Of a DNA stretch of 64,000 nt, positions 24,009 through 47,869 are shown piece by piece. The notes under the pieces were generated by a model. It did no database searches. It was not told the DNA's origin and saw nothing but the letters and a program-made list of their open reading frames with translations. The translations under genes were made by a program, and so were the position numbers. This DNA comes from Deuterostichococcus epilithicus (taxonomy: Eukaryota; Chlorophyta; Trebouxiophyceae; Prasiolales; Stichococcaceae), in assembly GCA_033439295.1 (NCBI GenBank), contig JAVTLE010000013.1:2852001-2916000 (forward strand), read 5' to 3'. Every line of letters begins with the position of its first letter. Within the stretch, counting starts at the first letter, position 1.

Positions 24009-27000
24009 ATGGCTGTTGCTGTCGCGGCAGCTCTAGCCCTCTTAGCTGCGACGTGTGCCGCTGCAACGGGCCCGAGTGCTGGAGTGCACCATGATGGTCC
24101 TGCAGCGGCGACCAGCACTGGCCCAGGTGATGAGCGCAACCTTGCGGCGGCAGCCTGCTGCTGCCGCCATGCTTGCATGGGACGTTCCGTGTCAATAGAG
24201 TGCCCGCATGTTTCCATGGAGTGCATAAGTGAGCACCTTCCGTTGGTGACAGGGCTGGGGGCAGCGGCCAGCGCTCTCATGCAGCACCGCAGCAGCAGCT
24301 GGCAGCGGCAGCTGCTGCATGCGGCCGCCGGACGTCCCACGCAGCAGCGGCGGCCCACTCGCATCAGGCCCACACGCCGGCCGACCCGCAGGCCCACCCG
24401 CAAGAGGCCGACCAAGCGGCCAACCAGGAGGCCAACCCGCAGACTAACACGAAAGCCAACCAAGCGGCCCACCCGCCGGCCGACACGAAAGCCAACAAAA
24501 CAGCCAGCCAGACGTCCAACTAGGCGGCCTTCTAGTAAGCCTACTAACAGGCCGACCAAACGGCCGACCAAGCGGGTGTTGCCGCCAATCTCCCCCGTTA
24601 GTGTGCCTGTCACGGTGAGCGCCCACAGCCTCATGAACGCAGCACTCGACTTAACAATTGCTGTAGAAGGCAGCTGGCACTGCATCACCCTTGTCCCCTC
24701 ATCTCCACGGCAGGCGGCAAGCACAGCGACTGCATATCGGCAAAGCGTGTTGCAAGGTATGCCGCAGCTGTGACGCACATGTCGGCTCGCTTCTAGCACA
24801 GCGAGGCAGAAGTCACGCTGATCCGCATCAGGTGGATGCTTGCTGTGCAGGTGACCATTGGCGCGGCAGGCTCTGGGGCAACCACAGCAAGCACGCTGGG
24901 CGTGACCATGGGCGGGCACAGCGCGGCCACCAATGCGCCGCGCTTCTACCAGTGTGCACCTTGTCGTTCAGGGGCTCTGCAGCACGCACCAAGCTGGCGC
25001 AGTGCTGTGCTGACTGTTGCTCGTGCTTTCGAAGCGTGAAGACCACGTTGGGCGGGTCAAGAATGTGGCTCTTGCTTGTAGGGGCAACGTTACAGCCGCC
25101 GCTTGACGGAGACACATACTGTGCTACAAGGCAGACCTAGCATCGATGGCAGCTGCCAAACATAGAAAAAGGCCAGCACTCCCCGCAGACAGCATCACTC
25201 CAGCGTCAGGAAGTTCATTGCTTCCAATTCACTACCTGTTGCAGGCGGCTTGGCATCAATGCTGGGCGTCTGTTCACCTCCGGCGCCCAGCCGTGGCCCA
25301 GCATCACCGGCGCGGACTACGGGTTCAGCCTCAGCGGCGCGCCGGTCGGCACTGAAGCTGGCTGGCAGGCAGCGGTCGCCGAGCTGCGAACACCCGCGGG
25401 GTAAATTCAGCCCATTGCTGCCCCGCACGATCATGCCACTTGAGATACAGGGCGGATACTCTGCTCCAAAGTCTGAGGCCCAACCACGCAGCCTAGCGAC
25501 TGAGTTTGAGAACATGCGGCTCAACGGACAGCAGCTGCACCAGATGCATGGGAAGCTAAGCGGCAGGAGAGATCAACAGCATCGGCGCTCCATCATCTGC
25601 AATGTCATGCAAAGACAGAAGCATCCACCGAGCCTGATCGGCGTACATGCTTACTGCGGCAGGCATGACCCGGTAAACAGTGCGGCGTGGGCACGTCCCA
25701 TGAAGTTCGACGCCTACGCTGCTAACCTTCAGAGCTCCTGGCGGGAGCCGACAGCCAGCTTCGCCCAGGACGTCCAGGTGCGCGGTATTGGCTCTTCCTC
25801 AGCTCGAAATGCTGGAGGCCTTGAGCCAGGAGCCTTGGATGGCGCGCGGCGCAGCATATCTCGGGGCTGTGCAGCAGACGCCGCCATGCCATCGTATCGT
25901 CACGCTGTCGGTTCCCAGCGCTGATGTGCGAAGCGACACCATGCTACCTCGGTGCCCGCATCGCGAGCTTCTGCGGGGGCTTTGCGCGCATCCGGGCGCG
26001 TCCAGCGGCAGGTTCACTCTGTGTGCTCACAATGCTGTGCCGGCTGCGGTGGCGCAGGCTCTGAAGGCCCTTGGCCTGTCCATGGAGATGGTCCTGACGG
26101 GTGTGTGCAGCCCGCCGGGCGGGCCATGGGGCATGCCACCCTTTGCATCCCGAGACCCCAGGGCCGCCGGATACTGGGCAGAGCGCTGGGAGGTAAGCTT
26201 GCCGTCCTCCTGAGTGGTCATTGTGTGCGGGCCGCCCCAGTCTGCGGAGTGCGCGCGATTACGCCGCTCCATGGCAGCTCTTTGCCGTCTGCGGCTGCAT
26301 GGCGGCACACTGCATGCCTTGAGATGTCATAAGCATATGTTCATAGCACGGTCGCCACAGTCTGACGCAACATGCTTGCCCCTCTGGCTGATGGCTGTAT
26401 CGGCAGCATGTATCGAATGGCACATGCAGCGTCGATTGTGATCCCGTCCCGCGACTTTCCTGAACGCAGCTCTACCGTGTTCTGTACGCCATGAGCTGGA
26501 CTGCCGCAGTGGCCGGCATCACGTCTATCGAGGTAGTGGCTCGCCTTGCCTCGCCTCGTGCTGGCAACCGCAATCCCCATGCGCGGTCCGCATGTGCTCT
26601 GTCTTCCAGTTGCACATGGCTCCCTGTGGCATCCTCGCCGGCAAGGCTGGCTCGACAACATGTCAGACCGAGTTCAGGGAGCGCATAGGCTGGCCTGGCT
26701 CCCATGGTGTACACGTCCGAGCCAAGAAATTGCAACTGGTGACTTGCAGTTGATGAACGAGCCGGACCTGATGGTCCGAAATTCGAACGCAACATGCACC
26801 TTCACCGCTGACGACTGGTGCGGCACCGCGCGGCTGTTGCACCCGCTGTCTGGGTGAAGGGCAGAGCATTTTTGGGCGCTGCCGTCAGGGCTTCTCTTCA
26901 CTAAACGTGCATCCCAAACTCATCATGTATACATGCAGCGTTTTGTCCACCTGGCGGCACGTCCTCATGCACACGTCTCCCACCCGTCAGTTGAGGGTCC

Positions 27001-30000
27001 CAGCATTTTACGCACATGCAGGCTGGACAACTTGACCATCCGCTCAGCGGCGACACGGGCGGCATTTGCGGATCAGGGTGCCGCGGTCACCATCCGGGCC
27101 GCGCCGTTCGCTACTGTGAGCCCCTTGTGTGTCCCGTGAAGTGCTCTATTTTCTACATCTGAACTGTAACAACACTAGGGCTGACCTACAATGCTCGGCT
27201 CCGCTGGTTCCCTGTCTGCGTTGAGCTCTGCGCCCGTTCAAAGACCTTGCAATGCAGCTGGAATGGTCAGCATCTCCATGCGTATGCTGAACGCCTCGTC
27301 GCAGCCATCAGCGAGAGTTTGCGGGTTTGTGCCGCAGGTCGGGTACAAGGGCGGGAGCGTCGCGCAGCTGACGGGCCAGAACATGTACCTCCAGTTCCCG
27401 ACAGTCCTCGCCGATGGCAGCCGGTGCGCCCTGGACCGCCTTCTAGGGGGCAGCAAGGTCCGTCTGTGCAGCGTCGGCGGGAGCAGCCCAATACGCCAGC
27501 AATTTTTCAGCAGTCTTGATTGAAACAGTCGATTGAAACTGTGAGTAGCGCAGGGCGGGACGCTGCTGCCAGTGGGCGCAGACTCCCCGATACTGCAGGC
27601 CACATGGGTGTGGGCAGGCTGGCCAGCCCATCTTGAGCGGTGACCGTCCCATGTGTAACGTGCAGGAACACGGTGCCGGGACCGCTGCTGTTCGACGCGT
27701 GGGCGTACAACCAGTACGGTGCCACAGCGAAGCGGGCGCTCGAGGTGAGGGACGAAATCGCAGCAGGCGTGCTGGCGGACATCGGTGCCGCTCTGCCGCT
27801 GTCAGTGTGCGAGTACTCTGCCGCAGCCGCAAGGTGAGGCAGATCAGCACAACCAAGCATCGCAGTCGCACTTTTGCTGTTCAGTGTTTCAGTGGCCACC
27901 ATTCGTTGTCCAGGCACCACTTTCCGTGCACTGTCACAATGTGCAGTACAAGCTCGCACACGGCATCATCCTGTTCAGGCTTTCTCTGACGCACTTGCCG
28001 CTGGTGCACTCTGGGCTGGCGGTCAGCCAGCGGCCACAAATCCTCGCCATGCAGGGCCTTCGACTCCTATGGCGGGACCAGTACGGCAGACACGGCCAGG
28101 TGGGCGGCGCGGTGGGCGGCGGAGACGGCAGTGTATCTCCAGACCGCCTCAGCAGCATTCGCCTTCGTGTTTGGCACAAACCCCTACCCGCTGGCGACCA
28201 AGAGCGGCATAAAAAAAGTGAGTCCACTCGCGGTCCTCGTGCAGGCAGCTCGCATGAGCCTGCCCCTCCTGCCCTCGAACCCAGCTGCTAGCATGTGCAA
28301 GTCTGAGGGCAAAAAAAAAGGGCGCACCGGGTGCCAGCACATGCCGGCACGCTGGCCATGGCAGATCAAAAGCTAGCCTTGCTGCTGAAGCGGCCGCAGG
28401 GACCCCAGGCCGAGCATGCGAATGGAGCGCATGCCTAAATCTCGAGGGCTGTGCAGCGCATCGATGTGCCGCCCTGCTCTGCTCATTCTGTCCGGCCTGA
28501 CGCCTGTACCGGCACTGCAGCAAGCCCATGCACAAGATCCGGGCCTGTGGCTGTCAGCTCCTTCAGCTGCCAGAACGGTTCTCGCCTGTCCCCCACAGCG
28601 TGTAGCTGCTTCCCTGCCTCGCGACATCACAGCAGACGGATATAGCATGCAGACCTACTGTACCCAGTACACCCAGTACACCACTCACTGCTGGTACAAC
28701 TTCCATCAGTCAGCAGATGCTGCATGTCAGATGTTGCGCACGCTGAGCTGTCGGATCATGTGTACCATGCAAGACACGACAGCAACTAAAGCAGCAACAT
28801 CCACAGCTCCTTGACGTCGCTCTGTCGCAGAACCTGCTGCACTGGACGGAGACGGCGCTGCCGTCGCGCGTCGGCGACAGCACGCTGACTGCTGAGGGCC
28901 TGCGGATGCTGGCGTCGCACGCGGTCGGCAAGCCCATGTGAGGCCACGCAATTCGTTCTGTTCGGGCTACAAACCCTGTCTGCGGGGCTGCTTTACGTCC
29001 GCACCTGCTGTGACAGCGCTGCGGATCAGCTGCGACAGCGCTGAGGGTCAGCTGTCTGTGTGAGGCTGCCATTCGAAGGGCAGCCAGATGCATCGCGGAC
29101 GAGGAAGAGTCGATAGCGCTACTCATGACAGTCGTCCGAGAATCTTTTCAGGCCTCGACGGGCAAAGCTGGCCCGTCTGTAGGCAATCTACAGCATGCAA
29201 TGACACCGCAGACCTGCTGCAGACTGCTAGGACCGCACCCAGGCAGGCTCGCAGGTGACTGATGTTGACGAGTCCAGTACACAGTGTCTGACGGCTGCGT
29301 GATTGCTGCTCGCACTCGCAGCCTGCCCGTCACCTCGTCACCCGGCAGCACAGCCCGCACGCTGCTGGCGGTGGACGACGGCACATTCTATCGCCTGTAC
29401 TCGGTGAATGACGATGCTGCGGCACTGGCGCTGACGCTGGACCTTTCGGCGTGGGGCGCTGCCCCCGGCGCGTCCGTCATTGCGGAAGAGATGTCGAGGG
29501 TGACCTGTCCACTGCTTTTTGCAGTTTCATGCGTTGCAGAGTACCGGTGGGCTTACAATGCAGTATTGACAGCGACGGCAGCGGGGTCGCAGAATGTGCT
29601 GCCGCCTCGCCGCCTCGTAGCATGATGGGCTCCAGAGGCAGCAGCAGGGGTGGCAGCAGCAGCAGAGCAGCAGCAGCAGCAGCGGCGGCAGCAGCAGCGG
29701 CGGCAGCAGCAGCGGCGGCAGCAGCAGCAGTGGCAGCAGCGGCAGCCAGGGGCGGCTCCAGCAGCAGCAACAGCAGCAGTGGCTGTGGCTGCGGTGGAAC
29801 TTGAAGTGACATGATGTATCTGGCACTGTTCGTCGCCACATGCAGGATCGTTTTGGGGAGGTGGGACCCGTGGTCACCCTGGCGCCGGGACTCTACAGCT
29901 ACTCGCAGCCCCCAGAGTCGCTGGTCATGTTTTCGGTACCCAAGGGCCCGGCGCCGGTGGCAACGGCCGTGCTGCCAGCGGCAGAGGATACAGCGCTGTT

Positions 30001-31431
30001 TGCCGGCGACCTGCAGGTACTGCCATTTTCAATGCTGGAACTCTGGCGAGTCGGTACAGGCTCCTGCCGCCCACAGTTTTCGGGCGGCCTTCCGTTCAGG
30101 CTCGCGTGCTTGCCTGCTTTCATTGCTCACGCCAGGCCACATCAAGCGCCTTTGCTTTGCCGTCCTTTACAGCGGTCTGCCGTTCAGTGCTCCCCCACTG
30201 CAGTGGATGCGAGTGCAGGCCTCCACCTGGCTTGCATTGGTGCGTCATGCAGCAAAGACGTGCTCAGAGTTTGCAGAGGCCTTGTGCAGAGCGCGATAGT
30301 GCTTGCCTGCAGGGGCTGCCGCAACCTGCAGACGCGCAATCACGCCTACCCGTCCGGACAGCCACTGCCGGCATGCACAACGCGACATCGGTGGCGCTGC
30401 TCAGATTTGACCTCGGCAGCATCTCCCCTGCCAGGTAGCTGTTAGAATTGCAAAGTCCAACTACAATTCATTTTCGCACTGGTCAAAACAAGGCCACCCG
30501 GACTCAGGTGTCAATCACCCTGACGCACCTCACTGCGTTTCGTCTTGCCACATTACCTGCTGCTCCCGCCACCAAGCGGCGTGCACGGTCGAATCAGAGA
30601 GGTACATAGAACTGCGACACTAGAACCAGGCAACAACACCTCATCGCTCTCCTTGCTGCAGCGTACTGTCGGCGGTGCTAACGCTGCATGTGGCCGAGGC
30701 CGGCGCCGGGCCCAACATCTTCACCCTGCTGGGCGTTAACGGCTGGCGCGACGACTGGTCGGCGGGCGGCACGACATGGGCTGTGATGCCCAACCTGTCG
30801 CCGCTGCCCAACGGCAAGGCGACAGATGCCATCGGCGACAACTTTCTGGACTGGCTGGGGACGGACACGCAGCCTCAGGTGGGGTTTGTGGCGAGGGCGT
30901 GCATGAGTGCAGCTGTTTACAAGCGCTGTGCTGTCCTTCGGGCAGCCCGCAGAGACGAGGGACACCCCAGCCTTTTCAGTGGCGAACGACATCTGCTGGT
31001 TTTTGATTGACACATGCGTGCCACCACGCGGGCGCATGTTCATGTTATGCGCCCCGAACATGTTTCAATTCCCTACACCGACCGGCACCCTGCGCCGGCA
31101 GCAACCACCAGTTGAATCCGAGCTCTGCTGCTGCTGAAGACTGCTGCCCACTCAGCAATCTCAATCTGCCATGGCGCAGGTCGCGGGCCACATCATGGCG
31201 ACGCTTGCCGACGCCATGGCGCAGGCGGCCTGCCAAGTCGATGTCACAGACTTTGTGAAGACTGCGCCCTCTTTCGGCGGCGTCCGCACGCTGTTGATGC
31301 TCCGGCCGTTCCGACACCCGGCATTTGGGGACATCCCCTCGGACGACCTGAGGCAGTCTTTTGTAAGCTTCCACTCAGCTGAGACCGCGGATCCTGCGCT
31401 GCAGCCGACGCTGACGGTGCAATATCGGTAG
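24009..31431 (+). CDS. Secreted GH-A-like glycoside hydrolase with basic RPT stalk and DNRLRE/CBM96-like domain, paralogue 1
   Basis: Eighteen exons in phase give 891 residues: 24009-24126, 24253-24614, 24851-24951, 25245-25400, 25663-25777, 26058-26192, 26470-26532, 26750-26817, 27022-27115, 27338-27423, 27666-27833, 28055-28217, 28831-28937, 29322-29499, 29846-30016, 30313-30434, 30662-30878 and 31180-31431. A signal peptide (VAVAAALALLAATCAAA) precedes a basic repeat of (R/K)PT units, about residues 67-150, with no polyproline hinge. The barrel-like part has RLGINAGRLF, YWAERWE, NEPDL (Glu354, likely acid/base) and VCEY (Glu482, likely nucleophile). A beta-rich segment follows (ARTLLAVDDGTFYRLYSV), then VALLRFDL, VLSAVLTL, VDVTDFV and a PTLTVQYR ending typical of DNRLRE/CBM96 modules. 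An in-frame ATG at 23946 could add 21 residues. Family assignment is by motif only; GH86 or another clan GH-A family is possible. Confidence 0.8.
29638..29785 (+). repeat. CAG/GCA/GGC trinucleotide repeat in intron 14 of GH-like paralogue 1
   Basis: An impure run of GCA and GCG triplets fills about 150 bases of the intron between exons 14 and 15. It produces poly-Ala and poly-Ser reading frames that should not be taken as genes. Equivalent introns of paralogues 2 and 3 lack it, so it is a recent local expansion. Confidence 0.85.
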
Positions 31432-32469
31432 TAGGAGCGCGGGTCTGGGAGTCCGGGCATTGCGCCATTAGTTTCATGAGCGACACAGCACTGTCTGCAT
31501 AGATTTATGGAGATTGGATTACGGGGAGCACTGCAAGGGGATATATGTGGGACAGCAGGTCAGCTAGACGAATGGTTCATTGCTTCATTCGGATCAGGAG
31601 CAATATGACCAGTAAGGCCAGAGTTTAGTTGTTGAGCGTTGTCAGCTGGACGAATGGAGTTGGATGACGCTGGGGCACTGCAAGGGGGTATATGTGGGAC
31701 AGCAGGTCAGCTGGAGGAATGGTTCATTGCTTCTTTCGGATCAAGAGCAGCATAACCAATAAGCGCAGAAGTTTAGTTGTTGAGCGTTGTCAGCAGAAGT
31801 TGAAGGTATGTCAAATTGTTGTTACGCTCAGCTGTGGTCTGGCTGAATAGTGTGTTGCAAATGACGATATCTTTAGGTAGTCGTCGAGCCCGTAGCCACC
31901 CGCACTCGGGCGGCTTGGGTTACCAAAGCTGACGCCCTTGGCGTGCTGTTCAATAGAGACTAGACTGGTTTGTAGAGAGCAGGGGTTTAGAATGTCAGCT
32001 GGACTTTGCAATGCGTGCGGCTGTTTAGATCATCACGCGCACTCTCGACGTGAAGGTATAATGCTGCGCACCAGTGCACCATTGTTCGTTGATCGTTGTT
32101 CTCACGATCCAAGGTGAGCTGAGGTCAGCACACGCAGCATGAGATGGCGTCCTTCACCGACCCTTAGCGAGCACACCAGGACAGTCCCGTGCACGTGATA
32201 CACGTGACCCGTCAAACTGCCAGCTGTTTTATCGGGCCAGCTGTTACACTTCGCATCACGGATCTGTGCGTTGCTTGGCAAACTTGAGTGCCAAAGTGCC
32301 TCACGCACCGCCGACGAGTCCCAGCGCGGCCGCGGCATGGGGTACAGCTCGATCGAATAGTCGAGCTGCTGCGCGCTGCAGTCGTTGGTCTGCGCAAACG
32401 AACTCGAGCCGCGTGCAGACTTGGACGTAGTCACAGCGCCATTTGCATAGCTGGTCTCAGGTTATCGAG
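31432..32469. other. Spacer between GH-like paralogues 1 and 2
   Basis: This 1.04-kb spacer contains a two-copy tandem repeat (listed separately) and, on the minus strand, an open frame 32434-32102 with protein-like stretches (SLTGHVYHVHGTVLVCSL) but a GTG start and no recognised family. A further minus frame lies at 32011-31811. It must include the promoter of paralogue 2. Confidence 0.35.
31528..31794 (+). repeat. Two-copy tandem repeat, period about 147 bases
   Basis: Copies at 31528-31646 and 31675-31794 share long near-identical blocks: gcactgcaagggg, tatatgtgggacagcaggtc, gaatggttcattgcttc and gtttagttgttgagcgttgt. The region has no coding frame and lies just downstream of paralogue 1. 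The copies differ at scattered bases. Confidence 0.9.
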
Positions 32470-35400
32470 ATGACGGTAGCCGGGACTCCGACGCGGGGGA
32501 CACATACTCACAGAAGGCAATCACAGGCCTTGGCTGCGCCTGCAGCCTTGGCGGTGCTCCTGCTGCTTGCGGCGTGCGCAACGACAGCTGCAATGTCTGG
32601 CTCCAGGCACCAGGCTGCGGCGACGCAGCTTGACGGTGCTGCAGGTACCACTTGTTCCCGGTGTGGACTGCTGTGTCCTGCACGCGCTCTGCATGGAGCA
32701 CATGCATGCCTCATAGCTCAGCTGCTCAATCATTCGATATGCGGCATCGTAGCATCGTGTCGCCCTCAGCCTTCCTGGCAACTCGCAGGATCTGGAGCTT
32801 CTGACACAGCGCCTGCCGCCAGCAGTCTGCAGCTGCGGTACAGGGGCAGCTTCAGCGGCAGGCGCCTGGCACAGGTCAGGCGCCCCACGAGGCGCCCCAC
32901 CAAGCGGAGGCCGACCAAGCGGCGTCCGACCCGGAAGCCCACGAAGCGGCGACCGACGAGGCGGCCCACCCGGCCCCTGCGGCGGGCGCCGACGAAGCGG
33001 CCTACCAAGCGGAGGCCAACACGGCGGCCGACGAAGGCGAAGCCTGCCAGGCCTACTCGCCGGCCTACCAGGAGTCCAACGAAGAAGCCCACTAAAAGGC
33101 CCACGAAAAGGCCCACGAAAGCGCCAACAAGGCGGAGCTCGCCGCCGCCGCTGCCGCCTCCGCCTGCGCCGCCGCCGCCAGCACCGCCGCCGCCTGCGCC
33201 GCCGCCGCCTGTGGCGATACCCAGCAATGCAATCACGGTGTGTGCCCGACGACCCCCGCATCGCAGGATTGCTGCGTTCTGCTGTGGCCCCGTCGCACGG
33301 CACGGCAACCTGAAGCAATCCGAACACCAGTGCAGCAAGTGAAGAGCTGGCCAGCATGTTGGCGCACTGTTGCACCAGCTCTCCACGAGCCTCACACATG
33401 ACGCAACATCGCTGTATCCTGCAGGTGACCGTAAGCGGCGCCGCCACAGGGGCCAGTACCATCAGCACGCTTGGCGTGACCGTCCACGGCCGCAATGGCA
33501 CCAACAATTCGTTGCGCTACTACCAGTGCGCCGCCTTCCTCTGGGTCATTTGTTTGTTTTGTTTGTGCATTCTGGGGCAGCAGGCAGCTCAGCCAGATGC
33601 GGCAGTGGAGCCTGAAATGTCACTCTACGAGTGCATGAGGCGGTAACGCTGAGGGAGTCGTCCGACAAGCACCCGGCTCAATGCCCTGCTGCGCCCGCTT
33701 CTGCCTGCAGCGCTGCGCGTGCTGCTGGCTCGCCTGCTGCGCTGAGCGGGATTTGCGCACAACCACCCGCCGGCAGCCCCAAAGCGAGGCAGAAAGGCGG
33801 AGAACTTGCTCAGTAAACAAATGTTGACATCTGTAGGACGTTTGTATTTTTCAAAAACTTCCAGGCGATACCAATTTCTGTCGCGCAGGCGCCTGGGCGC
33901 AAGCGCGGCGCGCCTGTTCCCCGCATCCCGGCAGCCCTGGGCCACCGTGACCAACACGTCGTACGGCCTCAGCCTGAGCGGCGTGGCGGTCAGCACACAG
34001 GACCAGTGGCTTGCGGCGGTTGCCGAGCTACGTACGTCAGAAGGGTGCGACACGGTTTCTTTTCTCACTTTCCCACTGGGCACCCCCCCCCTCTTCTTGC
34101 CCCCTCTTCGCCATGGTCAGTGGCACCTTTGTCGCCAACAGCACGCCCTTGCACTCAGCACCCAGCGGCGGCGGCGCCCACCACCGGCGCTCGATCCGGT
34201 GACACTCCTTGCGGCCGTGTTCTGCGTGATCTCATGTCGCATCGCGACTCACGCTTGCAGGCACGACCCTGCAAACACCGCGTGGGCAGCGCCCATACCA
34301 TGGGCTGGTTATGCTGACAACCTGCAGAACAGTGGGCAGGACCCCGCGATCTCCTTCGCTGCCGACATTCAGGTGCTGCTTCATGCACCCTGCCATGTCG
34401 CATGTTTCAACCCCAAACCCTGACTCCACAATTCCCTGCCGCCGTGGCATGCATGAGGGCGGCGCGGTGTGCCGCGGCCAGCCTTGACGCCAGCAGTCTC
34501 GGCTGGCGTGCAAACGCCTTGGAGGCTGCCCGACTGCTTCGCCGTAGCCCTTGCGCTCTGCAACCCTGCGCTCCCACTGCTGCCTTCTCACTGCGCGCTG
34601 AAACCGCTGATGCATGCTGTCCCGGCTGTGCCGCAGCTGCTGGCATCGCTCGGCATGGAGCCCGAGCTCATCCTGCCGGGCCTGTGCACCGGCGCGAGCT
34701 TCATCCCCAACTTCGCTTCCGAGGACGTCAACACGCCCCAGTACTGGACCGAGCGCTGGGAGGTGATCACACCTACTGCTGTGTTGAGGTGCCCAGTATG
34801 ATGCCCTGAATGATGCCTGCCTACTAATGAGCCGCAAGGCATCCTCGACTGGGCCTCCGCCGAGGCAAAATAACCTCATGCACAGTGATGGCTGTCATCG
34901 TGAAGTCACGACAGACACTTGACTCGCGCTCTGGCCTGGCGGCCGCCTGAGGCTGTTGACAGAGTGCCTGGCGTCGTCAGCGGGAGGCCGTGTGTGGAGC
35001 TGGCGGCATATGCCGCCAGTGACGCCCAGCGGCGGCAGAGGCTGCTCAGCTGGTGCCCCTCCCCCGTGCCCGCTGACTGTCAGGTTCCTGTTGTGTGCAG
35101 CTGTACCGGGTCCTCTACGTGATTGGCTACCTCGCCTCCGCCAATGGTGTCAAGGGCATCGAGGTGAAATCTTACAGATTCCATCCACAATCCACGTACC
35201 TGCGCCTATCCTTTTATCTGTTTTCTGGAGTGTGAGTTTTGGATCCGTCAGGTTATAATCGGTCCAGTCAAGCCTGATTGCAGACTGTTGTTGCTTGCTG
35301 TTGGGTGTCACCCTGCTTGGTGTTGGCTGTCAGCACCGCCAGCAACAGGTGGGAGTAGCCTGCTGCAGTCCAGATGCGGGCGATGTGCAAGGCAGGCGGT

Positions 35401-38400
35401 GTGACCGTGTGCTGTGTACGATGCGCAGATCGACAACGAGCCGGACCTGGCGGTCCAGTCCGGCGCGTGCGGCTTCGACGTCAACGATTGGTGAGCGCCA
35501 TGGTTGTGCGCCGGCCGTGCCCTGCTGCGTGGCGGTGCCGATTCCGTCTCAGTGTGCAGCCTGGTCTGCGGGCTTCCGTGGATGTCAAGACGCTGCAAGC
35601 ATGTGCACTAAGAAACTGTTGCCGCGTGCTGCCGTCTGCAGGTTCGACTACCTGACCATCAGCTCGGCTGCAGTCCGCGCTTCGTACGCAGACCAGGGTC
35701 TGACCGTCTCCCTCAGGGCCGGGCCGTTTGCGCAGGTTCGGGACTGGCTTGGGGTTGAGGGCTCACGTCCGGCCAGTGCGAGTACATGTTGCTGTTGGAC
35801 GTCCAAGCTGTTGAGCCATGTCGAGCATGCACTCCGAGAGCACGGTCCCATTTACGAATCGCACGATGTGGCCAGTAGACCTATGTGCCGCCACCGACGG
35901 CCCCATCGCGGATGCACGGCCGGCATGGCTGTCGTGCTGCACCAGGGCACCATGGCTCCGACACTGCAGCGTGTGCGTCAAGCGCAGGCGTGCTGCTGCC
36001 GAGTGCGCTGGTTTATTAAAGCGGTCGTCCTGTGTGGCTGCGCAGAACGGGTACTTGGCTGGGACCCTCGCTGTGATGACTGGCCAGAGCGCCTACCTGC
36101 AGTTCCCGACCGTCCTGCCTGACGGCACCAGGTGAGGTGGATATTGGGGAAGTAGCAGGCGTCTGCAGGAAGCGCAACAGGGTGCAGCTTGCATTGCATG
36201 CTTGCAGAGCCCCCTGTTTGCATCAGGTGGCACAGCACCCACTCTGTGCTGGGTCGCGGCGTGCATCACGCTCTGCGCGCCGTGCAGTTGTGCGCTGTCA
36301 GCACCAGGGGCCCCGCCCTGCAGACCTTCGACAGCTCTGGCATCACACACACCACAGCGCCGATACCTTCAAGCAGCGGCAGAGTAACTGCGGCAACAAA
36401 GCTTCTGTATCCTATCACTCGCTGCGCAGGAACACCGTGCCGGGCCCGCTGCTGTTCGATGTCTTCGCCTACAACATGTACGGCACCACAGCGGTGAGGG
36501 TGCAGCAGATTGCCGCGGCGACGGCAGCAGGGTTGCTGCAGGACACAGGTGTGGCGGTGCCGCTGGCAGTGGGCGAGTTTGCGCCGCAGACGTCCAGGTG
36601 AATTGCCTCACATCAACGGCTGTGTACCACACCAAGAAAGGGATGGGTGCAGATGCATCATCAGATCATGCATCACGATCAAACGGCTGAAATATTTGGT
36701 CGCGTGCAGGCTGCAGGGGCAGGTGTGTGCCAGCAGGTCGTTTCGCACGCCGGCTTGCATGTGTCGTGTCCTGAACTCTGAAATGCGTTTGGACTAACAG
36801 CATTGAGGCGAGAATGTTCAGACACGGGAGCGGGGCTGCAACCTGCCAGCATCCCCCAGTGTTTTGAGGTGTCTCTTGGAGCTGGAAGTCTGGGTTTGTG
36901 GCGGTGGCGCACTGATGAGGCTGGCCAAGGTTCCAAGTGTGGTGGATTGTGTTGGGACCTGAATCAAATGTGTGGTGACCTAAACAGGAACTTTGACCTG
37001 CTGTTCGGCGATGACACTGCGGACTTGCCGCGGTGGGCCTCCCGCTGGGGCGCGGAAACTGCGGTGCTGCTGCAGCAGGTGTCCGCTGCCTACACGTTCC
37101 GCTTCGCCACCAACCCCGACACGGCCAACCCCAACAGCGGCATCAAGAAGGTGTGCCGTGGATTTAGGGTCTAGGGGTCAGGGTTGCTGACCTGAGCGGC
37201 TGAAGTGGCACGGTGCAGCGATGCAGCGGCGTCACAAGGGGGCGGGTCGCATCCCGGGTCTGTGTTGGGTCAGCTCAGCAGGAGAGGCAGGCAGACAGAG
37301 TGCTGTCCGCTCAACTCGCCCAATGTAGCAGCAGTGCGTCTTGGCTCGGGCAAGTCTGCGCCCTGCGCCAGTCCAACCACAGCACAGCAGGCCCCATGCT
37401 TTACGCCTCGCCTGTGCGCTGCGCAGAGTGCCCCGCCTCACATATGCACTCGCTGCTGTCTCCAGCGTCTCCCCACTGACCCCTGTGCCTGTTGTGCACC
37501 GCAGAACGCGCTGCACTGGGCGGACCTGGCTGCGCCCTACAGGGTGGGCGACACCGACCTGTCCGGGGAGTCGGTCCGCCTCATGGCGACGCGCGCTCGC
37601 GGCCGCCCCATGTGAGCTTCGCCATGTTCAATCCCCCTAGCCCGCAACTGAACTCTGTTCTGTGCCAACTCGATCGGCAGATGCTGCTCCGTGCGTATCG
37701 GGGACAAGTGGGAGCAGTCCGCGCCGCGGTTCTCTTTGAGCATCTGCAGAATGGCCATGCGCATGCATGCTTGCCCTCGCCTGGCTGATCCCGGTGCCAA
37801 CGTTCGCAACCCCTGCTGGGGACGAAGCACCACAGTCCCGACGACATGTGGCCCCTCTCGAGACAGCATGCACACTACTGAATGCCAGCAAGCCCCAGGC
37901 ACTTGTAGCTTGCAGGAACACCGCTTCTGCGGCTAGTTGAGACAGATCAAGGGCAGTAGCGCCCCTCTGGCCCCCGTTTTCGTCACAGCATGGGCATGGC
38001 CTCGACGCTGACGAACCCCGCTGGCACCGTACTGGCGGTAGACGGCTGTGCCTGCAGGTCGACCGTACATCGCAGTATGTGCTGACGTTTCATGTGTGCA
38101 TTCTGCTCCGCAGCATGGGCGTGACGTCCACGCTGGTGAACCCTGCCTACACCCTACTGGCGGTGGACGACGGCGCTCAGTTCCGGCTGTTCAGCATCAT
38201 GGAGAACAACACGCCGGTGCCGCTGCTGCTGGACTTGACCGCGTGGAACGTTGCGCCGGGGTCGGCGGTCATTGCGGAGGAGATTTCGGCGGCGAGTGGC
38301 CTTCTCTTCTTGCAGCCTCTTGCAGTTCCTTGTGTGCAGCGGCCATCTTTCTCAGCAGTGCGACTCGGTGTCATACAATGGTGCGCCTCTGCATGTCTTG

Positions 38401-40391
38401 ATGCGCCGAGCCTTGCGCCGGCAACAGCTGCGGTCAACATGTTACGACCTGGGTGAGAGAGCCGTGAAGGGGGCGTCACAGCAGGCAGACAGGGTAGGCA
38501 GGCGCGCCAAGCCTTGCGTTGTGCCACAGCGGCAGTCAACGCATGTGCGACCTGGGTGTGATAGAGCGGTGCCGGGACTGTCACAGCAGGCGGGGCAGGC
38601 AGGCATGCTGAGGCCAAGTGCTGTCATCATGCCCAATGTAACGGCATCAGCCAGTCGGCTGCTCTGCTCCAGGCGAGGTCGCCTTCCCAAAATAGAATGC
38701 CTGCGCTCTCCTCACCCGCCTGCCTGATGACGCTTTCATCGACTCTTCACTGCTGCGTTATTTGCAGGCGCGCTATGCGGAGGTGGGCCAGGTGAATGCC
38801 ACCGCCACGTCCATGTACACCTACGCGCAGCCGGGCTACTCCATGGTCATGTTCTCTGTCATCAAGGGCCCCGTGCCGGTGGCCACCGCCGCGCTGCCGG
38901 CGGCGCAGGACACAGCCCTGTACGCCGGCGACTTCCAGGTGCCACTACTGCCAGTGGCAGTGTAGAGTTCCCCCCTCAGTTCCTCCTTATATGGATTTGC
39001 CATAGTCGGCAGCGACGCAGACTGCAGGTTCCTCGGGCACGTGGTCGGCTGGTGCTGGGGCAGCAGCACGCTGTGCATGTGCTGTCTTGCCTGCTCCCGC
39101 CATGCATGGCCGTCCCTGTTGCCCAATTCCCCTCCAGAGCTTTTATTTCCAGACCAGGAGTGCTCAGCTGCTGCTGTCCATGCGCGCCTGCAGGTCGCCC
39201 CGAACCATGGCCCCCAGGGGCTGCTGTCGGTGCAGACGGCTGCCGACGGCATCAACGACATAACGTCTGTGGCACTGCTGCGTTTCAACCTAGGCGACAT
39301 AAACCCTGCCAGGTGCGTCAAATGCACAAAACTGGGGAAGTATTTAGCGTTTGACACCGAAAAGTTGTAGTCCTGCCACGTGCTATGGTATGCCCCTGGC
39401 CGCAGCATGCGCCCCTGAGGCAATAGTCTCGTGCCAACATTCCTGGTCTCTTGCACTCGCCTGACCGCAGTCAGGTCTACATGTCCATGGGCGCGGCCAA
39501 GGCATGTTGGTCGAGCCATTTCCTGCTGTCTCAAGCCTGCTGACCATTATTCACCTAGGCCGTCCAATGAGCCAACTGCCTTTCGTGTGCGCACAGCGTT
39601 CTGTCGGCGGTGCTGACGCTGTATGCGTTCGACGTCGGCGCCGGAACCAACATCTTCACTGTGCTCGGCATCAACGGCTGGTCCAGCGACTGGAGCGCAA
39701 ACGACGTATCCTGGAGCACCATGCCCAACCTGTCGGCCTTGCCCAACGGACAGACAATCACCACCATCGGCGACAACTTTGTCAACTGGCCGGGGACGGC
39801 GCCGCAGCCCCAGGTGCGGCGCGCGGGTGCTGCTGAGCGTTTCTGTAATAGCGCCGCTTGCTGCAAACAGGCGGATCGTCTGATTCTTGTCCCACATTTA
39901 TAGTCGACCTGACACGCTCCAGTATCCGGACAGACCAGTTTGGAAACCTATGTCGAGGGCTCATGGCATGATGGTAGGGCAGCTGACAGCAGCAGCTGAG
40001 TCGTCTGCAGAAGCACATTAGCGGGGCCAATCCTGCAAATGTGTACAGCTTGCAGAGGTCAAGTCTCCTGCATCCCGGCTTCCCAGCAACGAAACTTGGC
40101 ATGGGCAGGTCTCAGTATGCCCGTGACCCACTGCCGCAGGTGGCGGGGCACCTCACCGCGACACCGAACGACGTCATCAATGTGACACCCCGCCGTGTGG
40201 ACGTCACAGACTTCATCACCAGCCCCGGCACCGGTGGCGCCGCCCGCACGCTGATGGTCTTTAGACCAATGCGCCACCCGGCGTACGGCGATGTGCCCGC
40301 GGACGACTTGACAAGTTCATATGCTAAATTCTATTCGGCCGAGGCGCCGACGCCTGAGCTGGCGCCAGTGCTGACGATCCAGTACCGATAG
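32470..40391 (+). CDS. Secreted GH-A-like glycoside hydrolase with basic RPT stalk and DNRLRE/CBM96-like domain, paralogue 2
   Basis: Eighteen exons in phase give 932 residues: 32470-32644, 32789-33237, 33425-33525, 33889-34044, 34261-34372, 34637-34762, 35101-35163, 35429-35490, 35642-35735, 36046-36131, 36430-36597, 36988-37150, 37505-37611, 38114-38291, 38768-38938, 39194-39312, 39597-39813 and 40140-40391. The signal anchor (APAALAVLLLLAACATTAA) has a long N-region. The (R/K)PT repeat is the longest of the three (about residues 89-176) and leads into a PPPPAPPPP hinge of the kind seen in algal wall glycoproteins. The conserved glutamates are Glu398 (NEPDL) and Glu524 (VGEF). C-terminal DNRLRE-like motifs are VALLRFNL, VLSAVLTL, VDVTDFI and PVLTIQYR. 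Intron 14 begins with GC (GCG|gcgagt) where paralogue 3 has GT. A degenerate copy of exon 14 lies at 37988-38050. Confidence 0.82.
37988..38050 (+). repeat. Degenerate upstream copy of exon 14, GH-like paralogue 2
   Basis: About 60 bases encode MGMASTLTNPAGTVLAVDG, closely matching MGVTSTLVNPAYTLLAVDDG at the start of the true exon (38114), 126 bases downstream, in the same phase and after a CACAG acceptor. The rest of the exon is absent. Confidence 0.8.
38432..38604 (+). repeat. Two-copy intronic tandem repeat
   Basis: Within intron 14 of paralogue 2, two units about 100 bases apart share GCGACCTGGGTG or ACGACCTGGGTG, GTCACAGCAGGC and GGCAGGC blocks, beginning near 38432 and 38532. There is no coding potential in the gene's frame. 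Confidence 0.6.
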
Positions 40392-41166
40392 AAGGGATTC
40401 GACCATACCCAGAGCATAGCTGGGCCGGTATTACTGAAGAGGTACGCAACACTGTGGAGGCACTGCACACTGCAGCACTTGACTGGTTTATTGTGGTGGG
40501 GCCGCAGTCATGGTGACATACATGGCGCATATCCCTGGGCGCATACAACTTTTACAGCAGCATATAAAAATATCTAGGTGTTTATAGGTTCAGTGGCGGC
40601 GACGTTTGTTTCATTCTCATCATTATTGATCCCAAGACAACCGCCGGTAGCTCATGACCCAGTGCATTAATATCACTTTCATAGGATGTCAATGCCCAAG
40701 CTGGGCTTCCGCTGTAAGATGTTGAGTCGCTCAGGCTCGTGTCGAGTAGTTTTTTTCGCACAGTATATATACAGCGCTGACTGTTGTTTTGGTACTTAGT
40801 AGCGGAGGGTTTCAAAGCAGTCCGACAGCCTGGCTTGCACGAGCCAGACTGACTCTCGTGAGGCAGTGTGCGCTGTCGTGCGCCCGCAGCGCCGATGCGG
40901 GCCACCCTTGCCACTACCTGGTCACAGACATCAGTCTCTGAGGCGCAGCTGGTTGCTGGGCTGCGGGTTTGGCGACCGAGCCGACGGCTGAGGCTGTTGC
41001 TGCGTAAGTAGTACCAGTACCCAGTACTTGTCAGCACGGCATGCCGGCCTCGCAAGTCTGGGACATTGAAGCAGCACCTCTGCATCTGCTCTCTCAGTCC
41101 TCGAGCAGCAGAGACCATCATTGAGCAGCAAAGACCGTCACTGGCTCATCAAGAGTGACAAGCAGC
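40392..41166. other. Spacer between GH-like paralogues 2 and 3, with a 179-residue antisense ORF
   Basis: The minus strand is open from an ATG at 41121 to a stop at 40582 (179 codons) in a stretch of lower GC. It includes pieces such as NVPDLRGRHAVLTSTGY and SPAWALTSYESDINALG and matches no family I know. A TATATATA run lies near 40765. Just before the paralogue 3 ATG, two 20-base units (GAGCAGCAGAGACCATCA and GAGCAGCAAAGACCGTCA) stand in tandem at about 41103-41140. The spacer presumably contains the paralogue 3 promoter. Confidence 0.35.
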
Positions 41167-44100
41167 ATGGCAGTCCGCGCTGCGCTCCTCGTCACGCTCG
41201 CCGTGTTTGCCTTCGCAACGTCTGGGGCATGCGGGAGCCCTCATTCCTCCACCAAGCCAGCCACTGACGCGTCGGGTATGCACGCGGCATCTTGCCCCTG
41301 ATGCCAGTGCAGCGACACTGGACTGCACAAGCCAGCAAGCCTCCCCGCAGTTCGGCTCCGCGCCTGAACGCCACGGCAATGCCTTGCGGAATGACTTTCA
41401 ACCGCATTGCGCAGGATCAAGCGCCGCCGCAGCAGTGCCGCTCGGCACCGAGCCGCACCCGACCCTGCATGCCGGCGGCCAGCGCCTGGCGCGGCAGTTG
41501 GCACGCCCCACGACCAGACGTCCGACGAAGCGGCGACCTACAAAGCGGCGACCCACGCGACGGCGGCCAACGAGGAGGCGCCCCACGAAGCGGCGCCCCA
41601 CTCGCAGGCCAACGAAGCGGCCGACTGCAAAGCCGAGGCCGATCAAAAGGGCGATAGCCCGCCGGCCCACCCGCCGGCCCACACGCCGGCCGACTCGCAA
41701 ACCGACGAAGGCTCCCACTGAGGCTCCGCCGCCGCTGCCGCCGCCGCTGCCGCCGCCAGCACCCCCTCCAATGCCGCCGCCGCCGCTGCCGCCGCCTATG
41801 CCGCTCGTCGGAGCTCCGGTTTTGGTGCGCTACGCACGTACTGCGCGTACCTTCAGCCTGCTGCCAGCAGGGTTGCGCACTCAGGAGGCTTCCCATGGCA
41901 TTTGCATGTCCCGCTCATGAGAATGCTCACAGCAACTGCAGCTGCTGCCTGCACTCGGAAATGCAAGCATGGCTGCTAGTGCCCGAATCCTATAAGGACA
42001 TCACCTGCTGCGACAAACGAAGGACAAATTGAAGCCGGAAATCTGCGTTCACAGGTCTCTGCCAGTGCCACCGGCACAGGCCTGACCACAGCCAGCATCT
42101 TTGGCGTCACCGTCGGCGGCCGCTACAGGGCATCCAACACCATGCGCTACTTCCAGTGAGCGTCCTGCAGTCGCCGAGCTATGCACGACAGCACGATCGA
42201 CAGAGCAGGACAATACACGCGAGCAACTGTCTGACCATGGACCCACTCATGCCCCGTTTGCTGCATGTGCAGCGCAAGCCTGGCTTCCGGGTCACCTGCC
42301 ACACGCACTGCTGCTGCCGTCAAAATCAGCCCTGAAACCTGGTCGAACCGACTCGGTCGCCATGCGCAGGCGCTTGGGCGTGAACGCAGGGCGCCTGTTC
42401 ATGGGGGCGACCCGGAAGTGGCGCGACATTGCGGGCGCAGACTTTGGCTATAGCATCAGTGGCGCTGCGGTCGGCTCACAGGAGCAATGGACTTCAGCAG
42501 TGGCCGAGCTGCGCACGCCTGCAGGGTGAGTGGTGACACATCGCCGCACCTCGACGAAAACCTGGAAACTGAAACTCATGACGAAACCTAGACTGAACCA
42601 CTCTGCAAGTGGGGAGCAGCATCGTGACGAAGTGCCCTTTCACGGCTGCCTGCTGACCGTCGGTACCGCGCCGGCTGTTCAACACCAGGCTGATACATTG
42701 CTGTTGGCGCCTGACCAGCCATCCAGCTGCAGCGCCTTCAGGAAGCGGCACCATCAAAGGCTGGGTTTGTCTTGCACCACAGGCACGACCCAGCGGCCAA
42801 CGGACAGTGGGCGCGGCCCATCCAGTGGGAAGCGTGGTCCTCAAACGTGGCGGTGCTTGGCAAGGACGCCAGCCTGACACCCGCCCAAGACCTGCAGGTG
42901 CTGGTAGATGCACCGATTTGGGGCGCACTTGCTCTTGCATCAACCTTGCAACTCGAACCAATGACACGTGCTGGCTCTCTGTGCAGGGTTGAAGGTGGCT
43001 GCACCGCCGCGCATTGCTCGAGTGTGTGTCACTTGAATCAGACCAACATAGCTGCACGGGTCACGCCAGCAGCAAGCAGCAACTCATCCTGATTCACTGC
43101 TTCCTGCCTTCTCTGCTGCAGCTGCTGCAGTCGTGGGGCATTCAGATGGAGCTCGTCCTGCCCGGCGGCGTGTGCATCGGCGGCTCTTCCCCCCTGGCCT
43201 CCTTCGATGTGTCCAACCCTCTCTATTGGCTCGAGCGCTGGGAGGTAACTGTCTGCATCTGCATCTTCTCATATACCACTAGGCTAGTTTCTTCTGTTCG
43301 CTGGCGCCTTTCACACCCCTGCTGGACGTGTTGCAACTCTGGTCCGTCCAGGAACTCGGTGAAAGCTGACGGCCAAGCGCCTACTGTGAGACTTCCTGAC
43401 GCCCTGCTCTCGCACAACTGCGGCGTGGCCATGTCAGCTGCGACACGCTAGCGTCAGTACGAGCTGAGTGTCTTGAACCCTGTGGCTGAGATATCGAATC
43501 ATTTTGTGTTTGCAACTCTGCAGCTGTACCGTACCATGTACGTGCTCGGCCGCTTTGCCGCCACCAATGGCGTCACACGCATTGAGGTGCTCTTGTGACT
43601 GCCGCACCAGCCACGCGCCCTTGTGTTGGCTGCAAGCTTATACTCGTCTCGCATGATGCAACAGCGTTGCTCAACTCGGGTTTTGTGAGCGGGTGTAGCA
43701 ACGCCTGCTGCCTTGTCCTGTTCTGCAAGCAGCAGGCGGTGCCCGATTGACATCGCACCAGATGCATGCTGACGTGCTGTCGCGGTGGCCGCTCCGGCAG
43801 ATCGCAAACGAGCCGGACCTTGAGGCGAAGAAGCCGTCGCCATGCAACTTCACCACAGCCTCCTGGTGAGTCTGTATAGGAAAAAGGAACACTGCAAATC
43901 CACCGGCTGGCTGGAACCTGGGCTTGACAGGAGCCTCAGTGTCTGACGCCAGCGGCCAGCCCCTGCGGAAATTCTCTACGAATGTGGTTACCTGGAGCCG
44001 GCGTAACTTGGCATGGCGCCGGATGTTGGAACTCATGCCAGATGCGATGGCGGGCTCCTGTCGGTCGTGTCTCAGACCCTGCATTGACGTTCCAATGCAG

Positions 44101-47100
44101 GCTGGACCAGCTGACAATTCGGTCCGCCGCGGTCCGCGCCGCATACACAGACCAGGGAGCGGCTGTCAACCTCAGGGCCGGGCCCTTTGCGCAAGTGCGA
44201 CGCCCTTGCATTAGTGTGCACCGAGTTACCACCTGAAGTTTGGAGGGGAATGAGTGCATGAGCTTGCATGGGAGTCGCAGAGAGATGCCTCTGGCATTGC
44301 TTCAGGTGTTCGATGCATGATCCACACAGTCATCTGAAACACCGATCACTCCTGCACATGACCTGCAGGTCTTTCCAGCAATGCGGTGGTTCGTGCAGCC
44401 GTTGCGATAACCTGCTCTGAGTAACCCAACGTATGCCAATGCCGTGCTCGTGCAGGCTGGGTATGCAAACGGGTCCCTGGCGCAGTTCACGGGGCAGAAT
44501 GCGTTTGGGCAGTTCCCCACCCTCCTTCCCGACGGCAGCCGGTGCGCACGGATCTGACTGGCAAGGTTTCGACGTGTGATCAGCTCACATGATGTGCAAG
44601 CATCTTACTTTGCATCTGACTGCGCAGCCTCGAGGCCAGCCCAATGCCAGGCTGATAACACATCCTTCAACCACTGTCATTCCGAGTGTCCTACCGCCGC
44701 CGTCGCCATTGCCGTTGCTGAATGCCGCTGCACCAACACAGCAACCTGGTGCCCGGTCCGCGCCTGTTCGACTCCTTCGATTACCACACCTACGGCGCCA
44801 CCGCTGCACGGGTGGCGCAGCACGCCGCCGCCACGACGGCGGGACTTATCCAGGACAGCGGCGGCTCTGTGGACCTGGTCGTTTCCGAGTTCAACGCCCA
44901 GACGGCAGGGTGCGCTACAGACGTGCTGGCACATGGAAGAGGGATGTGACTTGGCGATGCTGCAGCCCCATGGGAGAACAGGGGGTGGGATGTCTTCTTG
45001 GCACCGCATGAGGGGCACCTGGGTCTGGGGTGGCGTGGGTGAGCTGGGCGCACGGCTGGAGCTCCAGCCGCCAGGTCTTGCCTGTCGACTTTGCACGATG
45101 CATGCCTTGCTGTTGTCTCTGCGAGCAGCCAGACCATCGGATGTGAGATCTGGTTGCTGAGATTCTGAATCTGGGCCGCCGTTAGTCGCCTTGCATGACA
45201 GGACCCTCCTGCCATGTCCTGCTAGCATCCCACGGTGATAATTACTTTGGTCTGCCCCTGCCCCCAGGAACTTTGATGCCCTCAAGGGAGGAAACACCGC
45301 CGACACGCCTCGCTGGGCGGCCCGCGCCGCAGCTGAGGCGGCATCCCTGCTGCAGCTCGTGGCCGCTCCCTACGTGTTCGCCTTCGGTACCTCGTCGCAG
45401 CCAGCTGTCGCCCCAATCAGCCGCATCGCCAAGGCAGGCGATCCCGTACTGCTTGAATGCCATGCAGTCTGTTTCGCCATGTTTCTGCAACAGCTGGCAC
45501 TGGCCGTGTGAGCACGGCACGCCCACAGAGTGCACTGCCGGTGACGTGGTTTCATGCACGTTCTTGTCAGGTTGGGTCTGCTCTTTGTGGTCGTGCGACT
45601 AGAGACTCCCCTTTATTGTTGCAGAACCTGCTGCACTGGACGGAGACTGGGGGGTCATACAGGGTGGGCGACACTTCACTGACTGCTGAGCCGCTGCGGC
45701 TGCTGGCGGCGCACGCTGTCGGCAAGCCCATGTGAGCGCATCAGGAACTGGATTGTGACACTGCGCACACAGTGATTGGCTTTTCAGGCCATGAGAAAAA
45801 GCTGTCTCGCTTTGGAGGGAGTCTTGCCGGTACCATCTGGCACCGCTGTGCCACCCTCTGGTTGCGCCAAGGATGGGTCCGGCAAGCACAGCATTCGGCC
45901 AGCGCCCAGCTGCCAGGGCGGTCGGCCAAGCGCAGTCCAGCCCGTTTGAACGCTGTACCAGGGCTCCATCGTGTGTCTGAAGTTACTTTCGCCGGCCTGC
46001 AGACTCTTATCTGCCTCTTCGCGTGCGGACGGCACCCACACGCTGCTTGCCGTCGACGACGGCGACATGTTTCGCCTGTTTTCCGTTACCGACGCCGCTG
46101 CGCCGCTGGCGTTGTCTCTGGACCTGTCGGGCTGGGACATTGCTCCAGGCGGTGCCGTCGTCGCGGAGGAGGTCTCGGCGGTGAGCGCCGCACTCAACCC
46201 AAACTTGAGATTGGTCCTTGTAGGCACGGAGGCTTGACTTCGTTTGCACATTCTTGCGGACTCTGCGGCTTGCGGGTCGAGGCAACACGTGGCTGCTTCG
46301 CTGGGTGCGAAGCAGCGGCGGGGGTGGAATTGGTAGGGAGCTGCAGGGGTTGCAGTTCGCAAGCACAGCAGTGCGGCCGATTCCGCTGCCTGGCATGGGC
46401 TGCAGAGCAGTGGAATTGCAGCTAAGCGGTAGATCCTCTTTAGTGACACCTAATCAGTTGTAAGTTTAGCATAAAAGAGCCTCAAGACGCCATGCCGCTG
46501 CCCTGCAGGCGCGCTTCAGCGAGGCAGGCCCGATTGCGCCGCTGGACATGGGGACCTATGGCTACTCGCAGCCAGGGTACTCTGCCGTCATGTTCTCTGC
46601 GCCCAAGGGCCCGGCCCCAGTGACGACTGCTGCGCTGCCGGCGGCACAGGATGCGACACTCTTTGCCGGAGACCTGCAGGTACCTCCACAGCTCTGGTGC
46701 TTGATGCAGGACGTTTCTCCAGTCGTCATTGGCACACACATTGCTCAGATCCGGGGCACGACTTCGCTGGTACACTTGGTGACGCAATTCTGCAGCTGAT
46801 GCTAACATCGACAAATCCCACGCTGCAAGCGCTGAAGTTTGACATGTATTGTTGCTTACAGCTATTTACTATCGCCTGAGCACACATGCAACGTTATCTG
46901 ATGCAGACATCGCCACAGAGCGGCAGCACGACGCAGCTAGCAGTGAGGACATCCGCTGGCACCACGCACGACGTCACATCCGTGGCGCTGCTGAGGTTCG
47001 ATCTCGGTGACATCTCGCCCGCCAGGTGAGCGCGACTTGATCACGAAAAACTACTCGGATGCTGCAGGGCACCAAATATTGCAGGGCTACTGGTTGTGCA

Positions 47101-47869
47101 TCGCATGTGTGCACCATCGTGGACAATACAATCCATTGCGCGCTTTTCTACATCAGAAGAAAAACATTGCCTGAAGACTGTTTGCTTGCAAATTGCAGCG
47201 TCCTGTCGGCAGTGCTGACGCTACGCGTCGCTGACGCCGGGTTCGGGCAGAATATAATGACTGTGTTGGGCATCAATGGCTGGCGGAGCGAATGGCAGGC
47301 CGCTTCTGAGACGTGGGCCGGTATGCCGAACCTGTCGCCGCTGCCCAACGGCAAGGCGGTCGCTGCCATCGGCGACAACTTCGTCAACTTTCTGGGCACA
47401 GACCCGCAGCCGCAGGTGAGCAGGCCGCGTGATTTGCTGCAGGGGTTAGGGTTTTCCATTGTCTCGGTGATGACCCGGCCAGCGACCCAGCAGGGTCCGC
47501 ACGCTTGTGAGAGGCCAGCATGCAGCGCTCCCTGGGGGCCGCCATCGATGGCACATCACAGCCCGACAGTGAAAAGGAACAGCAGCTGACACTGTGTGTG
47601 GTCCCTGTGGCGGCCAGGTGGCGGGACACCTGTCGGCGACGCCTGCTGACGCCGCGGCGCAGGCGGCTCGCGGGGTGGATGTCACAGATTTCGTGAAGAA
47701 CTCGGCCTCCGGCGGCGGCATCCGCACGCTGCTGGTCTACCGCCCGCTGCGGCACCCGGCCTACGGCGACATCCCGTCAGACGACCTGACGAACTCTTTC
47801 GTGAACTTCCATTCGGCAGAGGCGCAGGATCCGGCGCTGCGGCCATTGCTTGTGATCCAGTATCGCTAG
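41167..47869 (+). CDS. Secreted GH-A-like glycoside hydrolase with basic RPT stalk and DNRLRE/CBM96-like domain, paralogue 3
   Basis: Eighteen exons in phase give 899 residues: 41167-41275, 41415-41824, 42055-42155, 42370-42525, 42783-42897, 43122-43244, 43524-43586, 43801-43865, 44101-44194, 44456-44541, 44742-44909, 45268-45433, 45625-45731, 46003-46180, 46509-46679, 46907-47025, 47199-47415 and 47618-47869. A clean signal peptide (VRAALLVTLAVFAFATSGA) is followed by (R/K)PT repeats (about 67-144) and a Pro-rich hinge. Glu363 (NEPDL) and Glu490 (VVSEFNAQT) are the likely acid/base and nucleophile; their spacing (127) matches the other copies (128 and 126). The C-terminus has VALLRFDLGD, VLSAVLTL, VDVTDFV and PLLVIQYR. 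Exon 17 is about 72% identical to that of paralogue 1 by hand count. Intron 12 uses a GC donor (AAG|gcaggc). Confidence 0.83.

Follow-up and report, generated by a model that had tools for sequence, protein, structure and literature searches.

What do three long neighbouring genes of the green alga Deuterostichococcus epilithicus encode, and what would a glycosidase-like protein do with a stalk of (Arg/Lys)-Pro-Thr triads, here written (R/K)PT? The genes, A, B and C, lie in a stretch of 64,000 nucleotides of contig JAVTLE010000013.1 (positions 2,852,001 to 2,916,000 of the forward strand, called the window below), and an earlier note, made from the letters alone, had described them as a tandem triplet of secreted enzymes resembling glycoside hydrolases (GH). 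The reading that we favour, to which we give a probability of about 0.55, is that the products are secreted retaining glycosidases of clan GH-A, from a family not named in the libraries used, and that the stalk serves as an electrostatic tether.

A, B and C are real genes. The tandem triplet was confirmed within the 64-kb window, with all copies on the forward strand, using models built from stop-to-stop peptides common to the copies (paralogue comparison) together with splice-site scoring and splice rules. These models reproduced the 18 matching exons and the 891, 932 and 899 residues of the earlier note (Table 1). Each model has one terminal stop, and the introns were GT-AG in 49 of 51 cases and GC-AG in two (B after 38291, C after 45433). 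All 17 introns matched in alignment place and phase across the copies, except for intron 1 of A, which was shifted by one alignment column with its phase unchanged. The products were identical at 458 of 880 (A/B), 503 of 881 (A/C) and 503 of 889 positions (B/C). Codon position 3 carried most differences in all nine region-by-pair comparisons, by a small margin in the A/B stalk (0.59 vs. 0.54 at position 1), which is the pattern of genes under protein constraint; the three copies are very probably functional. An in-frame ATG 63 bases upstream of the start of A, at 23946, adds MGAVASAPMAGGHRVVGARWR and gives 912 residues, and a blastp alignment with the N-terminus of B reached into this extension. 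No copy besides these three was found in the window (tblastn, E 1e-3); the genome assembly comprises 46.8 Mb in 21 contigs. Two intronic repeats were also seen, a GCA trinucleotide array in intron 14 of A (about 47 copies, 78% match, 29638-29779, forward strand) and, in intron 14 of B, a GC-donor intron, 1.8 copies of a 105-base unit (38403-38591, forward strand).

Further support for the splicing came from public proteins. A search with C, in which scoring was limited to the 7993 candidates sharing most words, returned one protein, P0001, which is 753 residues long and uninterrupted on a public contig of 3302 bases. It aligned without gaps to residues 207-932 of B (640 of 726 identical), and the 16 junctions of B downstream of exon 2 all fell inside the matched sequence, with 8 to 12 of 12 flanking residues equal. 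Since the corresponding 16 introns of B total 4979 bases, more than the whole contig, P0001 can only derive from spliced RNA or a retrocopy, and we infer that spliced RNA is very probably its source. Its coverage starts only as the RPT tract ends, takes in the poly-proline part and continues from there, so that exons 2 and 3 are joined. The splicing of the RPT exon to the downstream exons, on which the earlier note had let its reading depend, was thus seen at this join, in a protein that includes neither the RPT tract itself nor exon 1. A second public protein, P0003, is an open reading frame (ORF) whose contig measures at most 93.5 kb. The two ends of P0003 matched exons 11 and 12 of B (59% over 74 residues and 79% over 56), and its unmatched middle coincided with the place of intron 11 of B, suggesting that the interruption is the same intron.

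The products share one order of parts: a hydrophobic start, the (R/K)PT tract, a poly-proline part (B and C only), a barrel, a beta-sandwich and a CBM96/DNRLRE module (CBM, carbohydrate-binding module). Pfam named CBM96 in the three proteins, plus PT in A, and gave no match to a GH family profile. The barrel was recognized in structure models of two relatives, P0001 and P0008, both of which had a (beta/alpha)8 barrel like that of clan GH-A and a CBM96-like jelly roll, in agreement with the barrel-like and beta-rich regions described before. In known families of clan GH-A, one Glu stands after strand 4 and another on strand 7, and the same places were occupied here: in the P0001 model, the presumed acid/base Glu follows strand 213-216 and the presumed nucleophile lies within strand 341-347 (strands 4 and 7, numbered by comparison). 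The Asn-Glu pair of the NEPD motif was kept in all 16 covering rows among 27 relatives, and in A, B and C, and the strand-7 Glu in all 24 covering rows and again in A, B and C. From fold and residues together, retaining cleavage by two Glu is expected.

The family could be placed less closely than the clan. The fold matches 6zps (GH51), 4qaw and 3kl3 (GH30), 5bwi and 7psk (GH79), 2eqd (GH44), 5jvk (GH39) and 5ta1 (GH86), which we take to represent families of clan GH-A, have a barrel and a sandwich in common with the models, but identity was 7-15% in the listed fold alignments and A, B and C matched no GH profile. No GH family was ahead in both models, GH39, GH30, GH51, GH79 and GH86 included. 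The GH86/porphyranase profile PF18206 had no match in the genome and none in control genomes, which makes this result uninformative. Searches of PDB sequences with profiles gave no convincing match: 9ufe (E 5e-4) aligned to the repeat tract (profile positions 99-157) and was taken for an effect of composition, Sec62 (7kal, E 0.011) was read as chance, and the other best E values were 0.99 and 1.3, or there was no match. PHROGs returned nothing for the three proteins searched. The best match in a viral fold library, M1HRI8 (E 8e-10 over 635 columns), carries no name.

The C-terminal module could be named, in line with the DNRLRE/CBM96-like C-terminus of the earlier note. CBM96 (PF24517) scored 33.8, 35.5 and 33.9 bits in A, B and C, above the curated cut-off of 26, and DNRLRE (NF033679) was matched in all three, NCBIfam adding nothing else. 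In the models of the relatives, the module was a beta jelly roll like 7vbo. Its two best fold matches were an alginate binder (7vbo) and a chondroitin-sulfate binder (8wab), suggesting by analogy that the module binds a uronic or sulfated polymer; the likeness to the chondroitinase CBM (8wab) is one of predicted fold, with only 14-20% identity. The CBM96 of 7vbo, TM6-N4, sits in an alginate lyase of Defluviitalea phaphyphila according to its description (PMC9971899), whereas the modules studied here sit in glycosidase-like proteins of an intron-bearing genome.

The dense Arg/Lys-Pro-Thr repeat of the earlier note was present in the spliced models. Its 16, 15 and 13 triads span 79, 79 and 68 residues in A, B and C, with 35, 38 and 34 Arg plus Lys and not one Asp or Glu; poly-proline follows the tract in B and C but not in A. 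The whole stalk segment, approximately exon 2, has a net charge of about +39, +45 and +35 (pI 12), against -6, -15 and -6 for barrel plus sandwich and -9, -9 and -6 for the CBM module (pI 4.4-5.0). Because it is strongly positive while the enzyme and CBM modules next to it are acidic, the stalk may be an electrostatic tether to anionic matrix polymers. More than one reading frame is open across the stalk region, so that openness is no evidence, and the frame rests on the splicing to leader and barrel and on conservation between paralogues. The Pfam PT repeat (PF04886), called in A and not in B or C, is likewise a disordered Pro-Thr repeat, but it is a compositional class without function.

Taken together, these features would be explained by an enzyme that splits a wall or mucilage polysaccharide with its two Glu, in a double-displacement reaction. 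Its CBM96-like module would supply the sugar-specific contact, and the stalk, whose charge is opposite to that of the remaining protein, would attach non-specifically to an anionic (uronic or sulfated) polymer. The stalk would thereby keep the enzyme in the matrix, to act close by, on the wall of the alga itself or on what surrounds it. Anionic polysaccharides occur in the extracellular matrices of green algae (charophytes and ulvophytes; PMC10762512).

Several points weigh against this reading. Catalysis is predicted from fold and residues and the substrate is putative, the models are those of relatives and of medium confidence, and by our reading only 6 of 8 (P0001) and 7 of 8 (P0008) barrel strands appeared as runs of at least three residues. 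The Foldseek matches include GH27-type enzymes (3a21, E 1.3e-11, and 4nx0), and GH27 lies outside clan GH-A. The strand-6 motif, compared by eye, has Asn in A, B and P0001 vs. His in C and in 23 of 24 covering public rows, so that the substrates may differ. CBM96 was detected at E up to 1 in just 4 of 27 relatives, several of which are fragments. TM6-N4 requires Arg36 and several Lys for alginate binding (PMC9971899); an attempt to align the residues of its positive groove (Arg36, Lys27) gave no match, and the modules of A, B and C, unlike that groove, are acidic overall, so that anionic sugars may not be their ligands. The stalk might bind less well in the presence of salt or if O-glycosylated, and the N-terminus may be a signal anchor rather than a cleaved signal peptide. 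On balance, the earlier interpretation is partly supported, in its GH-like fold and its CBM96-like module, and the tether and the substrate remain its conjectural part.

The poly-proline part behind the RPT tract of B and C also fits a structural wall anchor, a chimeric arm of the hydroxyproline-rich glycoprotein (HRGP) kind, hydroxylated, glycosylated and maybe cross-linked, with the enzyme covalently fixed and the charge secondary. Green-algal chimeric extensins/HRGPs resemble B and C in carrying a proline-rich rod on folded domains; the repeat here differs in being (R/K)PT and very cationic. We consider such an anchor unlikely, though the strongest of the competitors, given that A keeps the cationic tract without poly-proline and that charge is the constant feature of all three copies, with no acidic residue in the triad tract. 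The N-termini bear on a still less probable arrangement, a type II membrane protein with a signal anchor and an RPT stem that would act in glycan trimming or transfer, either in the Golgi or on the cell surface. Hydropathy over 15 residues peaked near the N-termini at 2.40, 2.53 and 2.23 in A, B and C, and about 20 residues, including basic ones, precede the hydrophobic stretch in B, and in A if started at 23946; the composition of the stalk is that of a disordered stem. The corresponding extension is almost nil in C, however, and a CBM96-like module suits polymer binding better.

A matrix protein without catalysis, in which the GH fold would survive as scaffold or lectin, is a further alternative. 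In its favour, no activity is known for these proteins, and the strand-6 motif has Asn for His in A, B and P0001. This is the most improbable of the alternatives, as the NEPD motif (16/16), the strand-7 Glu (24/24) and the strand-6 Tyr (24/24) are present in every covering row. Literature searches found nothing joining glycoside hydrolase family 39 with a green alga, or joining extensin, pectin and extensin pectate, and the papers on DNRLRE with alga included none on green-algal enzymes, judged by title.

Public relatives were collected by profile search. The first profile, built on the catalytic region, added P0002 and P0003 to P0001, and a profile including P0002 (7996 candidates scored) found 27 proteins at E values from 5e-250 to 9e-30, 25 of them new, which brought the relatives to 28 (P0001-P0028; sources ena, ncbi, lgn and jgi; many fragments). 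With E values as high as 1 allowed, Pfam called 16 families among them, some of these obviously by chance. In a midpoint-rooted tree of 13 chosen rows, six of deviant composition, P0001 grouped with B (100/100) and the four algal sequences stood apart from the nine others (100/100). No relative appeared in a bacterial and archaeal collection of 84,980 species or in viral contigs (short-pattern scans), nor in plasmids (tblastn with P0005 alone), searches that can miss distant ones; a bacterial or viral origin was rejected on these results. The Asn-rich sequences of the relatives give the impression of eukaryotic proteins, perhaps those of rotifers. P0024 and P0026 carry leucine-rich repeats after the C-terminal part, so that the C-terminal attachment varies. 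P0007 and P0011 end in a hydrophobic tail, preceded in P0007 by a Thr-rich stretch, possibly for membrane or GPI anchoring.

As far as these searches show, what is new is the combination of a clan GH-A-like barrel with a CBM and a stalk of known kinds. We tentatively propose, with rather less confidence than the tether reading itself, that A, B and C and their 28 relatives are the first-seen members of an undescribed, apparently eukaryotic family of clan GH-A composed of barrel, sandwich and CBM96-like module, and that the algal gain of the (R/K)PT tether holds a soluble glycosidase electrostatically in an anionic matrix, with targeting split between the charged tether and the acidic CBM.

Table 1. 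Positions in the window of genes A, B and C and of their main parts.
Feature	Position	Strand	Remarks
Gene A	24009-31431	+	18 exons, 891 residues (912 from in-frame ATG 23946); splice model
Gene B	32470-40391	+	18 exons, 932 residues; nearest match P0001; splice model
Gene C	41167-47869	+	18 exons, 899 residues; splice model
A exon 2, (R/K)PT stalk	24253-24614	+	16 triads; Pfam PT E 6e-13
B exon 2, (R/K)PT stalk	32789-33237	+	15 triads, then poly-proline
C exon 2, (R/K)PT stalk	41415-41824	+	13 triads, then poly-proline
A exon 8, NEPD motif, presumed acid/base Glu	26750-26817	+	
B exon 8, NEPD motif, presumed acid/base Glu	35429-35490	+	
C exon 8, NEPD motif, presumed acid/base Glu	43801-43865	+	
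A exon 11, strand 6 (YNQYG) and strand 7 presumed nucleophile Glu (CEY)	27666-27833	+	aligned to P0001 model
B exon 11, strand 6 (YNMYG) and strand 7 presumed nucleophile Glu (GEF)	36430-36597	+	aligned to P0001 model
C exon 11, strand 6 (YHTYG) and strand 7 presumed nucleophile Glu (SEF)	44742-44909	+	aligned to P0001 model
A exons 15-18, sandwich end and CBM96/DNRLRE module	29846-31431	+	PF24517, NF033679
B exons 15-18, sandwich end and CBM96/DNRLRE module	38768-40391	+	
C exons 15-18, sandwich end and CBM96/DNRLRE module	46509-47869	+	PF24517, NF033679

Elsewhere in the window, an aldo/keto reductase was found in two pieces (10835-12765, forward strand; PF00248, E 7e-8 and 5e-8), together with a short match to the C-terminal domain of 1-Cys peroxiredoxin (4684-4842, forward strand; E 1e-4). 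ORF pieces at 6425-8874 and 18186-21625 (forward strand) looked by eye like leucine-rich repeats, and the three pieces scanned gave no Pfam match. An ORF on the reverse strand (54517-54726) was weakly similar to chlorophyll a/b-binding proteins (E 0.004, below the Pfam cut-off), a hint of photosynthesis in the host.

To our knowledge, few wall-remodelling enzymes of green algae have been described, and algal walls are hard to open. That the three copies have diverged, and that a sequence of other origin is 88% identical to one of them, suggests an old set that has been kept. A glycosidase family unnamed in the libraries used, with conserved presumed catalytic residues and a charged tether, constitutes a directly testable set of enzymes, and the (R/K)PT stalk may be a general module to hold enzymes on acidic polysaccharides.
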